DNA from: Erythrobacter aurantius
GTDB lineage: Bacteria > Pseudomonadota > Alphaproteobacteria > Sphingomonadales > Sphingomonadaceae
Assembly: GCF_023823125.1 (NCBI RefSeq)
Contig: NZ_CP090949.1
Span: 1,884,001-1,948,000, forward strand
DNA length: 64,000 bases
Direction: 5' to 3'
Shown here: positions 15,698-24,004 of the stretch, piece by piece
Position numbering within the stretch: position 1 is the first letter of the stretch
Layout of the letters: each line of letters begins with the position of its first letter
Made by a program: the position numbers and the translations under genes
The notes under the pieces: generated by a model
Database searches by the model: none
What the model was told of the DNA's origin: nothing
The model's input: the letters and a program-made list of their open reading frames with translations, nothing else

Positions 15698-16726
15698 ATG
15701 ATCCGCACCGATACCACGTTGATTGTCGGGGCCGGTGCGAATCGTGAGATCGAAATGCCCGACGGGCCTGACCTGTTGGCGAAAATCGCTGCGGGCTTTG
15801 AATTCGATCGCCTGCATTCGGACGTGAAATCGCGCGATCTGGTGAATTTGGCCAATCTGTTCGAGCGCGTCTCGGATGAAATCGGCCTTTCCTATGATGA
15901 ACTGGTCGGCGGGGCGATGGCTATCCGCGAAGCCACGATTGTCAGCACCTCGATCGACGCCATCCTTGAACAATATGGGCATGATCCGGCGGTGCTTGCG
16001 GCGGGCAAGCTGGCGATTGTCTATTACACGCTTCAGGCGGAATCGAAGTCCACGCTGGCCGCCGAACCGCGCGCTGCGGGTGAGCTTCCGCTGCGCGGCA
16101 CCGAAAACTGGTTGTACCAGCTCGGCCAGCTGATCGTGAAAGGCGTGCCGCGAGCCAAGGCGGAGGAATGCTTCGAAAAGCTATCGATCGTCTGCTTCAA
16201 CTATGACCGGGCAATCGAACATTACCTGCCGTGGGTGGTTCAGCGGGCATTCGGCATGACCTATGAGGAATCGTGCGAGCTTGTCGCCGGGCGGCTGCGC
16301 ATCGTGCACCCCTATGGCGTTGCCGGGCGGTTGCCGTGGCAGGGGGATGAGGAAAACGGCGCGACCTGGGGGCAGGACGATCCGGAAAACATCGTCCAGC
16401 TTTCAAAGCGCATCTTCACCGCCAGCCAGCGCGCTGCCTCGCGCCAGTTCCAGTCCTATCTCCGCGCCGAAATGTCGCGCGGGAAACGTCTGGGTTTCCT
16501 TGGTTTCGGGTTCGATCCGATGAACGTCGCCATGCTGTTTGACGAGCTCGAACATGACAATCCCGACATGCTGATCAGCCTCGTCGACATCGGCGAAGTG
16601 GAGCGCAAGGCGATCCTGCGCCTGATCTATCGCCTCACCGGCATCACCGACGAAAGCCTGATCACGCTGGAAAACATGAAGGCGTTCGAGCTTCTGCGCG
16701 ATTACGGGCGGTTCCTCGAAAGCTGA
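15698..16726 (+). CDS. SIR2-like domain protein
   Basis: The 342-residue protein has landmarks of the SIR2-like Rossmann fold found in bacterial NAD-consuming proteins. The opening strand and glycine loop read LIVGAGANRE (residues 8-17) followed by MPDGPDLLAKI. An FNYDRAIEHYL motif has Asn168 and Asp170, where sirtuins have the catalytic N-x-D. The candidate histidine is His204 in IVHPYGV, and LGFGFDPMN closes the fold near residue 265. There is no membrane segment and no second recognisable domain. Base composition is like the neighbours. In antiphage and toxin families this fold degrades NAD; whether this one does is inference. It stands alone between the helicase and gor genes. Confidence 0.78.
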   Translation: MIRTDTTLIVGAGANREIEMPDGPDLLAKIAAGFEFDRLHSDVKSRDLVNLANLFERVSDEIGLSYDELVGGAMAIREATIVSTSIDAILEQYGHDPAVLAAGKLAIVYYTLQAESKSTLAAEPRAAGELPLRGTENWLYQLGQLIVKGVPRAKAEECFEKLSIVCFNYDRAIEHYLPWVVQRAFGMTYEESCELVAGRLRIVHPYGVAGRLPWQGDEENGATWGQDDPENIVQLSKRIFTASQRAASRQFQSYLRAEMSRGKRLGFLGFGFDPMNVAMLFDELEHDNPDMLISLVDIGEVERKAILRLIYRLTGITDESLITLENMKAFELLRDYGRFLES

Positions 16727-19001: not shown

Positions 19002-20534
19002 ATGTCAGCCAATATCGCCGAAATGGAACGCCGCCGCGAAGCCGCCCGCATGGGTGGCGGGCAAAAGCGCATCGACGCACAGCACGCCAAGGGCAAGCTG
19101 ACCGCGCGCGAGCGGCTCGACGTGCTGCTCGACGAAGGCAGCTTCGAAGAGCTCGACACCTATGTCGAACATGATTGCGTCGATTTCGGCATGGCGGATC
19201 AACGCATTCCGGGCGACGGCGTTGTCACCGGCAGCGGCACGATCAACGGGCGGCTGGTTTACGTCTTCAGCCAGGATTTCACCGTCTTCGGCGGCAGTCT
19301 GTCGAAACGCCATGCGGAGAAGATCTGCAAGGTGATGGACACCGCGATGAAGGTCGGTGCGCCTGTCATCGGGCTCAACGATTCGGGCGGCGCGCGCATT
19401 CAGGAAGGCGTCGCATCGCTTGGCGGCTATGCCGAAGTGTTCCAGCGCAACGTGCTCGCCAGCGGTGTCGTGCCGCAGATCAGCCTGATCATGGGGCCGT
19501 GCGCGGGCGGGGCGGTCTATTCCCCGGCGATGACCGACTTCATCTTCATGGTGAAGGACAGCTCCTACATGTTCGTCACCGGCCCGGACGTGGTGAAAAC
19601 CGTCACCAACGAAGTCGTCACGCAAGAGGAACTGGGCGGCGCGATCACCCATTCGACCAAGACCAGCGTCGCCGATTGCGCGTTCGAGAACGACATCGAG
19701 ACCCTGCTCGCGACGCGGCGGTTCTTTGACTACCTGCCGCTGTCGAACCGCGAGGACGTGCCGGAGATCCCGACCAGCGATCCGTGGGACCGCGAGGAGC
19801 CGAGCCTCGACACGATCATCCCCGACAATGCCAACCAGCCCTATGACATGCACGAAGTGATCGCTAAGACGCTGGACGAGGGCGATTTCTTCGAAATCCA
19901 GCCCGGCCACGCGGCGAACATCATTTGCGGGTTTGGCCGGGTCGAAGGGCGCACGGTGGGCGTGGTGGCGAACCAGCCGATGGTGCTGGCGGGTGTGCTC
20001 GACATCAATTCGTCAAAGAAAGCCGCGCGTTTCGTGCGGTTCTGCGACGCGTTCGAAATTCCGATCATCACCTTCGTCGATGTGCCCGGCTTCCTTCCCG
20101 GCACGGCGCAGGAGCTGGGCGGGATCATCAAGCACGGCGCGAAGCTGCTCTTCGCCTATGCCGAGGCGACCGTGCCCAAGATCACCGTCATTACCCGCAA
20201 GGCATACGGCGGGGCCTATGACGTGATGGCATCGAAGCACCTGCGCGGCGACCTCAACTACGCATGGCCCACCGCCGAAATCGCGGTGATGGGCGCGAAA
20301 GGCGCGGTGGAGATCATCTTCCGTCAGGATCGCGACGATCCGGCCAAGATCGCCGAAAAGACCAAGGAATACGAAGACCGCTTCGCCAACCCCTTCGTCG
20401 CCGCCCAGCGCGGCTATATCGACGAGGTGATCCACCCCAGCTCAACCCGCCGCCGGATCGCCTTGGGCCTACGCAAACTGCGGACGAAGCAGCTGGAGAA
20501 CCCGTGGAAGAAGCATGACAATATTCCGCTGTGA
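19002..20534 (+). CDS. pccB: Propionyl-CoA carboxylase beta subunit
   Basis: PccB is the carboxyltransferase half of propionyl-CoA carboxylase and makes methylmalonyl-CoA. At 510 residues it has the PccB length. The two crotonase-like halves are visible: [14 protein letters not shown] and [16 protein letters not shown] (CoA site) in the first, and [12 protein letters not shown] with [11 protein letters not shown] in the second. The ATG at 19002 follows GGGACGGGACGA. Its biotin-carrying partner is pccA about 6.5 kb downstream, and the epimerase and mutase of the same pathway lie between them. An AT-rich gene starts 9 bases after the stop. Confidence 0.95.
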
Positions 20535-20543
20535 GGAAAGATT

Positions 20544-21311
20544 ATGGTCGAACCTGTCATTTCAACGGGCGCAGCGCTTGTCGGTGTATCAGCCTGGTTT
20601 TTGAATAAGTTATTTGGCCCGTCAGCCGATGCGATCGGCGAAGAAATCAAAAAATATGGGTCCGACCGGCTTGAGAAGATTTTTAAGCGCGCAGAAGAAA
20701 AAATGAAGAATGGGGACGTCAATTCTTTACCTCCCGGGTTTGCTGGCCTTCTAATTCAAAAAGCTTCTTTTTCCGAAGACAGTTCCATTCTCACCGACCT
20801 TTGGGCTGGCCTAATCTCATCCGCGTCCAAGAATTTTTCGAATAGGCATAGCTTGTATCTCGATATACTATCGCAAATAAGTAGTGAAGACGCTGAAAAC
20901 CTCTTGAAATTGTACAAAGGCATGTATCAAGAAAATTCAACGACATGGCCTCCGGACAAGGCCCGCTTTATGAGATCGTTGATTTTCAATAGATTTGAAG
21001 AAGCCGAAGAAAAAGATTCTGAGAAAGAAATAATGAAGGATTTCCCGGAATTTCCATTTGACGGTTGCGTTATTTACAAGAGATTTGAGACCGTAAGAGA
21101 GAAAAGTCACCCGAAAGGGTATCGGCAGATTTGGCGAGGTTACGTCCAAGGTACAAGCATCGATATTTCTTTGATGTCTCTTCAGCGTCAGGCATTAGTA
21201 CAAGCTTTTGGATTTTCTAAAACAGATAATAATTTGTCAGTTTACTTAGAGGGTTTTGAATTGTCATGGTTAGGAGCCAAATTCGTCTATAATTGCGAGG
21301 GAGAGATATGA
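20544..21311 (+). CDS. Abi-alpha (DUF4393) family protein
   Basis: The 255-residue protein matches the Abi_alpha/DUF4393 pattern. An N-terminal short hydrophobic part is followed by GPSADAIGEEIKKYGSDRLEKI, then a lysine-rich helix, LLIQKASFSEDSSILTDLWAGLI and LDILSQISSEDAENLLKLY (the order 'D-LW-L-', 'L-L-S--DA--L' that marks the family). Family members were named from abortive phage infection, but the mechanism is unknown. Base composition is unlike the neighbours: 21 of 60 bases are G or C in 20881-20940. The start follows GAGGAAAG, and its last codons contain the Shine-Dalgarno of mce, overlapping its ATG (ATGA). This looks like a recent transfer into a metabolic operon. Confidence 0.8.
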   Translation: MVEPVISTGAALVGVSAWFLNKLFGPSADAIGEEIKKYGSDRLEKIFKRAEEKMKNGDVNSLPPGFAGLLIQKASFSEDSSILTDLWAGLISSASKNFSNRHSLYLDILSQISSEDAENLLKLYKGMYQENSTTWPPDKARFMRSLIFNRFEEAEEKDSEKEIMKDFPEFPFDGCVIYKRFETVREKSHPKGYRQIWRGYVQGTSIDISLMSLQRQALVQAFGFSKTDNNLSVYLEGFELSWLGAKFVYNCEGEI

Positions 21312-21760
21312 AACTCGGCCGTCTCAACCACATCGGGGTCGCCACGCCCTCCATCGCGGACTCGATCGCCTTCTACCGCGACGTGATGGGCGCGACGAAG
21401 ATCCACACGCCGTTCGACCTTGAGGAACAGGGCGTGAAGGTCTGCTTCGTCGACACGCCGGGCGCGGATGGGGCGATGAATGGCACGCAAATCGAACTGA
21501 TCGAGCCGTTGGGTGAGAATTCCACCCTCGCAGGCTTCCTCGCCAAGAACCCGCTGGGTGGGCAGCATCACGTCTGTTTCGAAGTCCCCGACATCGAAGA
21601 CGCCCGCGCCGAATTCGAGGCATTGGGCAAGCGCATCCTCGGCCCCACGCGCATCGGGGCGCACGGCACGCCTATCTTTTTCGTCCATCCCAAGGACATG
21701 CAGGGCATGCTTACCGAAATCATGGAAACGCCCAAGGACGACGGGCACTGGTCTAACTGA
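21308..21760 (+). CDS. mce: Methylmalonyl-CoA epimerase
   Basis: This small vicinal-oxygen-chelate metalloenzyme converts (S)- to (R)-methylmalonyl-CoA. Two glyoxalase-fold modules are visible: LNHIGVATPSIADSIAFYRD at the N-terminus and QHHVCFEVPDIEDARAEFEALG in the second half. Metal ligands are the histidine in NHIGVA, the histidine of HHVCF and the glutamate in MLTEIME near the end. The ATG at 21308 lies in an ATGA overlap with the Abi-alpha gene and follows GGGAGAG; 150 residues. It fits between pccB and the mutase functionally. Confidence 0.95.
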   Translation: MKLGRLNHIGVATPSIADSIAFYRDVMGATKIHTPFDLEEQGVKVCFVDTPGADGAMNGTQIELIEPLGENSTLAGFLAKNPLGGQHHVCFEVPDIEDARAEFEALGKRILGPTRIGAHGTPIFFVHPKDMQGMLTEIMETPKDDGHWSN

Positions 21761-21769
21761 ATTTTCCTG

Positions 21770-21829
21770 TCACCCCTGCGCAAGCTGGGGTCTCCGGCCG
21801 CCCGAGATGCCAGCTTTCACTGGCATGAC
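21770..21829. repeat. Two-hairpin REP-like element between mce and mcm
   Basis: Within the 90-base gap two palindromes sit side by side. The first (21772-21791) pairs ACCCC with GGGGT around a GCGCAAGC core. The second (21808-21825) pairs TGCCAG with CTGGCA around CTTTCA. Read on the minus strand they form the pattern GTCATGCCAG...GACCCCAGC...GGGGTGAC, a repeat type widespread in alphaproteobacterial intergenic DNA. No T-run follows on the coding strand, so it should not stop transcription into mcm outright. Confidence 0.65.
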
Positions 21830-21850
21830 GATTATGCTTAGAGGCATCGC

Positions 21851-24004
21851 ATGACCGACAAACCCACCACCGCCGATTGGCAATCGCTCGCAGACAAGGA
21901 AGTGAAGGGCCGCGATCTTACCCGCGCCATGCCCGAAGGCTTCACGATCAAGCCGCTTTACACCGAGGCCGATCACGCAGGCTTCGATCCCGGTCTGCCC
22001 GGTTTTGCGCCGTTCACCCGAGGCGTGAAGGCAAGCATGTATGCGGGGCGCCCGTGGACGATCCGGCAATATGCGGGCTTTTCCACCGCCGAGGAATCCA
22101 ACGCCTTTTACCGCCGCAATCTGGCGATGGGGCAAAAGGGGCTGTCGGTCGCTTTCGATCTTGCCACCCACCGCGGCTATGACAGCGATCACCCGCGCGT
22201 GACCGGCGATGTCGGCAAGGCAGGGGTCGCAATCGACACCGTGGCCGACATGGAAGTGCTGTTCGACCAGATCCCGCTCGATACCATGTCCGTTTCCATG
22301 ACGATGAACGGCGCGGTGATCCCGGTGATGGCGTTCTACATCGTCGCGGCGGAACGTCAGGGCGTTTCGCAAGCGCAGCTTTCAGGCACGATCCAGAACG
22401 ACATCCTGAAAGAGTTTATGGTCCGCAACACCTACATCTATCCGCCCGAACCATCGATGCGGATCGTTTCGGACATTATCGCATACACTTCGGCCAACAT
22501 GCCGAAATTCAACAGCATTTCGATTTCGGGCTATCACATGCACGAAGCCGGGGCGACAGCGGTGCAGGAGCTTGCCTTCACCATCGCCGACGGCAAGGAG
22601 TACGTCACCCGTGCATGTGCCAGCGGGCTGGATATTGATGCCTTTGCTGGGCGGCTGTCGTTCTTCTTCGGCATCGGCATGAACTTCTTCATGGAGATCG
22701 CCAAGCTGCGCGCCGCGCGCACGCTGTGGTACCGGGTGATGGATGGCCTTGGCGCGCAGGATGAACGCTCCAAGATGCTGCGCACCCACTGTCAGACGAG
22801 CGGCGTGTCCTTGCAGGAGCAGGACCCCTACAACAACGTCATGCGCACCACGATCGAGGCGATGGCGGCGGTGCTGGGCGGCACGCAATCGCTCCACACC
22901 AACGCGCTGGACGAAGCCATAGCGCTACCGACCGATTTCAGCGCCCGCATCGCGCGCAACACCCAGCTGGTGCTGCAAGAGGAAAGCGGGATCACCGACG
23001 TGGTCGATCCGCTCGGCGGCTCGCATTACATCGAGGCGCTGACAGCGACGCTGGTGGAGGAAGCCGAGAAGCTGATCGCAGAAGTGGACGCAGCCGGCGG
23101 CATGACCGCCTATGTCGCCACCGGCGCTCCCAAGGCCGCGATCGAGCGCGCGGCAGCGGAAAAGCAGACCAAGGTCGACAAGGGCGAAACCGTGATCGTC
23201 GGGGTCAACAAGTACCGCAAGGACAAGGAAGACCCGATCGACACGCTCGACATCGACAACCAGAAAGTGCGCGCCGGGCAGATCGCTCGCATCGAGCGGG
23301 TGCGTGGCGGTCGTGACGAGGCGGCATGCCGCGCGGCGCTGGCTGCGCTGACCGATGGCTGCAAGAGCGGGGCGAACGTGCTTGCGCTGGCGGTAGAGGC
23401 TGCACGCACCGACGCGACGCTGGGCGAGATTTCGGCCGCGATGGAAGAGGTGTTCGGCCGCCACGATGCGACGCCCGCGCCGGTGAAGGGTGTTTACAAG
23501 AGCGCCTATGAATTCGATCGCCGCTGGGCGCAGGTGACGGACGGTGTGGATGCCGTGGCGCGCCGCCTTGGCCGGGCTCCGCGCATCATGGTCGCCAAGA
23601 TGGGCCAGGACGGCCACGATCGCGGCGCAAACGTGATCGCCAGCGCGTTCAGCGACATGGGCTTTGATGTCGTCTCCGGCCCGCTGTTCCAGACCCCTTC
23701 CGAAGCCTGCGCAATGGCGCTGGAGCATGACGTTGACGTGGTTGGCGCATCGAGCCTTGCGGCAGGTCACAAGACCCTGATTCCCGAACTGATCCGGTTG
23801 CTCAAGGAAGCGGGCCGCGGCGACATCAAGGTGACGGCAGGCGGCGTGATCCCCCCGCAGGACTATGATTTCCTGCGCGAAGCAGGGGTGCAGGGTATCT
23901 ACGGGCCGGGTTCGAACGTGGTCGAATGCGCGGCGGATATTCTCGTGCTGCTCGGCCACAACATGCCGCCATTAGGCGAGGGATTGGACGAGGCGGCGGA
24001 GTGA
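21851..24004 (+). CDS. mcm: Methylmalonyl-CoA mutase, B12-dependent
   Basis: The mutase converts (R)-methylmalonyl-CoA to succinyl-CoA through an adenosylcobalamin radical. It is a single 717-residue chain, as in the large catalytic subunit. The N-terminal TIM barrel carries [15 protein letters not shown] (CoA threading) and [16 protein letters not shown]. The C-terminal cobalamin domain has the axial-ligand motif DGHDRG with His589, followed by the usual SLAAGH and GG motifs. The start ATG at 21851 comes after the repeat element. The stop overlaps the next gene's GTG (GTGA). No MeaB-like chaperone gene is in the window. Confidence 0.97.

Follow-up and report, generated by a model that had tools for sequence, protein, structure and literature searches.

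A predicted abortive-infection gene in a variable slot within the propionyl-CoA operon of Erythrobacter aurantius

The 64,000-nt stretch of the Erythrobacter aurantius chromosome analysed here (hereafter the window) carries a propionyl-CoA/methylmalonyl-CoA operon in which an additional open reading frame (20544-21311, plus strand) lies between pccB and mce. The initial annotation had described this arrangement as an AT-rich gene between the two operon genes, all on the plus strand, and the coordinates together with the Pfam matches of the flanking genes bear this out. We refer to the gap between pccB and mce as the slot, and to the genes found in it as cargo. The features discussed below are as follows:

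19002..20534, plus strand: pccB, propionyl-CoA carboxylase carboxyltransferase subunit (Carboxyl_trans, PF01039, 671.7 bits), left flank of the slot
20535..20543, plus strand: 9-nt spacer GGAAAGATT with a Shine-Dalgarno-like GGA, of the length and layout of empty-site pccB-mce spacers
20544..21311, plus strand: Abi_alpha/DUF4393 cargo gene, 255 aa, GC 0.42 (PF14337, 51.3 bits)
21297..21305, plus strand: GAGGGAGAG, Shine-Dalgarno-like box for mce inside the last cargo codons, identified by sequence
21308..21760, plus strand: mce, methylmalonyl-CoA epimerase, right flank of the slot (Glyoxalase_4, PF13669, 68.6 bits); its ATG overlaps the cargo stop (ATGA)
21851..24004, plus strand: methylmalonyl-CoA mutase, mutA (PF01642, 766.4 bits); the mce-mutA gap serves as internal control junction

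The composition of the cargo gene is strikingly different from that of its surroundings, with a GC content of 0.42 against 0.618 for the whole window. When a 768-nt frame was moved along the window (63,233 positions), the lowest GC value, 0.419, was found from position 20505, overlapping the cargo gene, and the lowest value among frames that do not touch this gene was 0.542. The base counts given previously were exact upon recounting (21 of 60 bases G or C at 20881-20940 and 38 of 60 at 22681-22740). Elsewhere in the window, a 342-aa ORF (15698-16726) has a sub-threshold match to SIR2_2 (19.6 bits, cut-off 24.5), and a palindrome-like repeat follows mce at 21768-21838 (GTCACCCCTGCGCAAGCTGGGGTC ... 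GGCATGACGA), styled like the repeats that fill or border many of the slot inserts.

The HMM search proposed in the initial annotation supports the assignment of the cargo protein to the Abi_alpha/DUF4393 family (51.3 bits with PF14337, cut-off 29). The match extends over residues 42-128 and profile positions 5-95 of 196, while a relative encoded in the slot at another locus (L173) is matched over positions 10-196; within the 3.42-Mb genome of the window, the cargo gene is the single PF14337 match. All 12 members of an Abi_alpha alignment match PF14337 at E 0.001 and share an invariant P26, a KASFSEDD-like block and a C-terminal LG...C motif, and Abi proteins encoded in the slot share 19-38% identity with that of the window. 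Other resources gave weaker signals: a weak PADLOC match to PDC-S47 (3.6e-5), a weak PHROG match to phrog_2232, of unknown function (6.4e-6), no match in NCBIfam and none among 50,697 phage and 72,556 plasmid records. A word-based search of 5.8 billion proteins, with 552 candidates scored, retrieved five other relatives (36-56% identity), this method being one that misses remote relatives such as the slot Abi homologues. In the predicted structure (pLDDT 77), the N-terminal half is helical and confidently modelled and the C-terminal part is less certain; a fold search with this model returned no match below E 0.001 and no clear known fold.

A member of the same family, EF2833 of Enterococcus faecalis, causes abortive infection with premature lysis of the infected cells, according to the published study (PMC6356687). 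That study describes the family as found mostly on prophages and offers only speculation on the mechanism (PMC6356687). The earlier statement that the mechanism is unknown stands, although a phenotype is on record for this one member. By analogy with EF2833, we infer that the window protein may be an abortive-infection factor. A prophage context, common for Abi_alpha genes though not strictly defining, is absent here: the scanned neighbours (SDR-like, pccB, mce, mutA and pccA) are metabolic.

To place the junction in its evolutionary context, we compared it among relatives. Of the 114 genomes in the genus sample, 103 gave a match to mce (E 1e-40), with pccB upstream in 102 of these 103 loci; the remaining one (L183) ends at a contig end. 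This locus and L051, which has no pccB, were excluded from measurement. Empty sites, which the initial annotation had suggested looking for, do exist: the two genes are separated by only 9 nt with a GGA box in two of the 102 measurable genus genomes, and by an insert of 93-1195 nt in the other 100. A set of 80 named loci from several genera, overlapping with the genus sample in some genomes, comprised 79 measurable junctions, of which nine were empty and 70 filled, with inserts of up to 2,964 nt. Seven of the named loci (L065, L066, L074, L076, L078, L081 and L108; four of them Qipengyuania) have inserts of 2.2-3.0 kb. The GC content of the insert is below that of the flanks in 97 of the 100 genus inserts (means 0.529 and 0.609), and a plus-strand ORF of at least 40 aa is present in 92. 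In 44 of the 92, the cargo ORF takes up almost the whole slot, coming within 20 nt of either flank; the remaining ones may include some non-genes.

The architecture of the junction suggests how the cargo is accommodated. In 11 empty sites, a spacer of 9-10 nt containing a GGA or GG box separates the pccB stop from the mce ATGAAACT. This order recurs in the window as TGA-GGAAAGATT-ATG, except that the ATG is that of the cargo. As the left spacer retains the layout of an empty site, the cargo starts at the position of the mce start in such a site, and the Abi gene probably uses the ribosome-binding site that mce would use. A new box for mce, GAGGGAGAG, sits within the last codons of the cargo, and both this box and the ATGA overlap are present in the sequence as initially described. 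The resemblance noted between the two ends of the gene is real in that both are ribosome-binding sites, the left one with empty-site layout; it does not reflect a target duplication. A single recent insertion with target duplication was accordingly rejected, also because 100 of 102 genomes have an insert at the junction and the inserted material is of many kinds. We also set aside the ATGA overlap as proof of fitting. It is weak evidence because mce begins with ATGAAA, such that any ORF entering mce in that frame stops at ATGA; 36 of the 92 genus cargo ORFs end in this way, roughly the expected one in three. Starts overlapping the pccB stop were counted for 30 of the 92, a figure that depends on the ORF rule, in which the most upstream start is taken. 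The view that a foreign gene was fitted to the operon is nevertheless right in outline, given its foreign composition, its patchy distribution (4 of 114 genus genomes), its start at the old mce ribosome-binding site and the preserved operon order; what the comparison does not support, in the form proposed, is the notion of one gene wedged in.

The cargo is highly diverse. At E 0.001, the 92 cargo ORFs matched 12 Pfam families in all: GIY-YIG (9 ORFs), Abi_alpha (4), OsmC (4), CdiI_2 immunity (4), DMP19 (3), one ORF each for thiolase, DUF4357, Rap1a immunity, tRNA_anti-like and ribbon-helix-helix, and, for the rest, further thiolase models; some of these matches lie below the curated cut-off (e.g. 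ribbon-helix-helix in L127, 20 against 20.5 bits). No integrase or transposase is found among these 12 families, as matched by the longest plus-strand ORF of each insert. PADLOC candidates in the slot cargo are PDC-S47, with up to three members per model, and PDC-S14 together with PDC-S57 (L131), and the cargo of L201 is an ordinary metabolic thiolase. Most slot ORFs are without any Pfam match and could not be named; among the few that could, predicted immunity, nuclease and candidate defence functions appear to stand out. Four loci (L115, L117, L126 and L153) contain 119-aa ORFs of one cluster, with CdiI_2 above cut-off in L115 and L153 when scanned singly; the CdiI_2 slot ORFs are immunity-like genes within a metabolic operon.

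Many unrelated cargo families thus occur across the genus and its relatives, and Abi_alpha recurs in the slot. Homologues of the window protein were detected in 4 of the 114 genus genomes, in all four cases between pccB and mce; the gene is hence not shared with the same composition by all close relatives, the outcome that had been named as contradicting a transfer. A search with PF14337 in 397 family genomes, sampled evenly out of a larger group, gave 10 matches in nine genomes, eight of them with a match over the cut-off. The match lies between pccB and mce in six of the nine (G000, G125, G183, G236, G397 and G505) and outside the slot in G313, G372 (two copies) and G168 (below cut-off). With the addition of G121 and G124, slot Abi_alpha genes are known from eight species with four genus codes, that is, seven species besides that of the window; two further genus searches (10 and 13 genomes) revealed no new slot case. 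The two Abi_alpha genes of G372 (L315 and L320) are located outside the slot, the L320 copy being antisense between ORFs that resemble tsf and pyrH.

Protein-only clustering of the longest cargo ORFs (n=92) yielded 53 clusters, including 37 singletons; the count takes only the longest plus-strand ORF per insert, and L181 contains a second ORF of the GIY-YIG group. A first clustering (43 clusters, one with 29 members) was replaced, as shared repeats had chained loci together. Conserved flanks, many unrelated cargos (53 clusters among 92 ORFs) and some empty sites (2 empty and 100 filled) are thus all present, as in a hotspot. Shared cargo was observed in 3 of 5 pairs of loci above 94% pccB identity, in none of the 70 pairs at 92-94% and in 43 of 1,455 at 84-90%; this comparison includes the 99 of 102 loci with enough pccB (the window's own locus was too short) and counts no non-coding inserts as shared cargo. 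On a FastTree phylogeny of pccB and mce, flanking genes which may themselves recombine (99 rows, the window and 98 others), the cargo changed at least 77 times, non-coding inserts being treated as one state, as compared with 85.2 +/- 1.4 changes after shuffling of the labels (200 shuffles, lowest 81). The observed number falls below the shuffled range, indicating that a link between cargo and descent is present but faint. The four rows of OsmC-like cargo can be explained by a single change, whereas GIY-YIG requires nine changes for nine rows and Abi_alpha four for four.

The adjacent gap of the same operon provides an internal control. By one method applied to the plus-strand ORFs of the named loci, pccB-mce contains 40 clusters among 65 ORFs, against two clusters among 58 ORFs for mce-mutA (78 loci). 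With ORFs of either strand, mce-mutA reaches six clusters among 60, the extra ones being largely antisense ORFs. The length of this gap varies as well (1 to 1831 nt), since 58 of the 78 loci carry a member of either of two gene families there.

Footprints of the route of entry were sought as pieces of the flanking genes in 170 pccB-mce inserts, a set that includes genomes present twice (score of at least 40 and above 60 shuffles). Broken copies of the mce 5' end were detected in 18 of the 170 inserts, corresponding to 15 distinct loci as three genomes are counted twice, and copies of the pccB 3' end in none of the 170. Of the 18 alignments, 17 start with the first or second nucleotide of mce and one with nt 21 (L098); their other ends are scattered, 28 to 88 nt into the gene. 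The relic of L132 agrees at 40 of 40 positions with the mce start of other species and at 33 of 40 with the intact mce of its own locus; the 5' end of that intact gene is most similar to those of loci which carry the same repeat upstream. A similar allele pattern is seen in L139 and L199; best-of-many comparisons favour an 'other' mce, and only clear allele cases were counted. The presence of mce 5' relics without pccB 3' relics suggests import anchored by homology in mce, and the relics would point to one-sided recombination, in which exchange on one side proceeds by homology within mce and the other joint is made illegitimately within the resident copy of that gene. Such footprints of homology-facilitated illegitimate recombination are found in other loci (the relics; L132, L139 and L199) and not in the window, whose own insert contains no mce relic; entry of this particular insert by that route is conjectural, which weighs against the explanation favoured below.

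The pccB end and mce of the window are nearest to the window's own group. This affinity, to a group delimited by how closely mce matches that of the window, is lost in a pccB tract of about nt 150-1000 (window 19152-20001, nt 151-1000), where the window has a value of 0.012 and ranks 1 of 42 (median 0.081). Low values were likewise obtained for the window in the two end segments of the gene, namely the first 150 nt (rank 1 of 42) and the last 480 nt (rank 3 of 42). We rejected this tract as a donor trace of the Abi gene: it stops short of the slot, the end segments are low too, and the group was defined via the window's mce. It hints at an exchange near the slot, not tied to the Abi gene.

All in all, the pccB-mce junction is a hotspot inside an operon, most likely kept variable by recombination. 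In its full form, the explanation that we favour, and consider probable, is that of an operon-internal slot of high turnover whose cargo is exchanged by flank homology, with an Abi factor as the cargo in the window. Cargo would be brought in or replaced via homologous recombination, with the core genes on either side, and chiefly the 5' end of mce, serving as anchors; sites that differ would be joined illegitimately on the left. It would be translated from the pcc transcript, which could allow a promoterless single-gene function to be expressed at once; as proposed in the initial annotation, expression whenever propionate is used is plausible. Judging from the one tested family member, the Abi protein might then act on infected cells by disturbing either the timing of lysis or the membrane, with fewer phages released. 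Our working model is that it would be silent in growth, and lethal or lysis-advancing in infected cells.

The most serious alternative is that operons are loose throughout the lineage, their gaps collecting repeats and short ORFs, and that pccB-mce is one such gap without any special exchange. Other junctions do lend it some weight. Among the best-scoring 30 of 53 genomes with a trpB match, trpB-trpA contains an insert in 18 of 21 same-genus loci and in none of the nine loci outside the genus; among the best-scoring 30 of 54 with a hisF match, hisA-hisF contains one in 6 of 10 same-genus loci and in 1 of 20 outside, the other 19 being without. These inserts in the genus suggest that operon junctions are loose in the lineage generally, which may be the real cause, and the idea of pccB-mce as the only slot was abandoned, since both junctions also hold extra ORFs in the genus. 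In addition, several pccB-mce inserts consist mostly or partly of palindrome-like repeat, and it was such repeats that chained 29 loci in the first clustering. sucC-sucD measured -1 to 5 nt in 24 loci (sucD was not found within the flank in six same-genus loci), and the hisF-hisI control provided three values only. In the genome of the window, the trpB-trpA insert (L265, C1 near 2448977-2450125) is 947 nt long with a nuclease-like ORF, and the hisA-hisF insert (L309) is 172 nt long with a 59-aa ORF. The contrast with mce-mutA shows, however, that not all junctions behave alike: the plus-strand ORFs of that gap in the named loci belong to two families only. Moreover, Abi_alpha genes concentrate at pccB-mce, and the mce 5' relics found by searching the pccB-mce inserts point to a site-linked process. 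We therefore regard general looseness as a rather doubtful substitute for exchange at this slot.

Alternatively, Abi_alpha could be an ancient resident of pccB-mce, evolving fast and lost or replaced in most species. The slot members are highly diverged and spread over four genus codes of the family, and their identity of 19-38% to the window protein would also fit an old presence with many losses. On the other hand, the four genus members need four changes on the flank tree, GIY-YIG scatters alike (nine rows, nine changes), and the Abi_alpha gene of the window keeps a GC content of 42%, all of which makes this scenario unlikely. More improbable still is free-standing homing, in which GIY-YIG nucleases at pccB-mce and DUF559-like nucleases at trpB-trpA would cut empty junctions and drive co-conversion, other cargo, Abi_alpha included, riding along or taking over. 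GIY-YIG matches do occur in 9 of the 92 cargo ORFs, at nine separate places of the tree, and ORFs similar to the nuclease-like one of the window's genome, presumably DUF559-like from their motif resemblance, in 5 of the 21 same-genus trpB-trpA gaps, that genome included; yet 83 of the 92 cargo ORFs, taken as the longest per insert, have no GIY-YIG match. Finally, site-specific integration via an att site within the 5' end of mce is very unlikely: the common starting point of 17 of the 18 relics (mce nt 1 or 2) might resemble an attL/attR duplication, but their ends vary from 28 to 88 nt into mce, the 12 cargo Pfam families include no integrase or transposase, and the genus inserts are all below 1.2 kb.

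Returning to exchange by flank homology, it is tempting to extend it beyond this operon. Tentatively, pccB-mce, trpB-trpA and partly hisA-hisF could be genome-wide, integrase-free cassette slots, in which promoterless immunity or defence genes (Abi_alpha, CdiI-like, antitoxin-like, GIY-YIG and many unknowns) would be exchanged between species via flank homology and expressed at once by the metabolic operon. If this holds true, defence and immunity genes could spread without islands, prophages or promoters, a short spacer in a core operon being enough. The slot would provide candidate single-gene functions and a marker for recent recombination, and it would call for caution against metabolic roles assigned solely by operon position. 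The mechanism of Abi_alpha could then also be tested in a Gram-negative host, where a single locus offers several natural alleles. Word matching in one literature collection returned no report of such an operon slot, which is a weak indication of absence.

Several known systems share part of these traits. Chromosomal integration hotspots between core genes display conserved flanks, many different cargos and empty sites, all of which recur at pccB-mce. The slot differs from them in its position inside a co-directional operon, in holding mostly one small ORF and in the lack of a recombinase among the genus cargo. Insertion of genes into existing operons occurs during operon evolution and likewise places a foreign gene between operon partners; here, however, one gap has been refilled with many unrelated genes, whereas the next gap has received only two families. 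The immunity-gene arrays of the type VI secretion system (T6SS) of Vibrio cholerae have been explained by homology-facilitated illegitimate recombination (PMC5361080). The two cases have in common the proposed one-sided homology, remnants beside new cargo and immunity genes among the cargo; they differ in that the slot is flanked by propionate-catabolism and not by effector genes, and in that its cargo families are mutually unrelated. Lastly, EF2833, the Abi-alpha (DUF4393) protein of prophage 6 of E. faecalis V583, resembles the window protein in its PF14337 match above cut-off and in its size (272 against 255 aa) (PMC6356687). In contrast to EF2833, the window gene belongs to a metabolic operon instead of a prophage, and it is remote in sequence.
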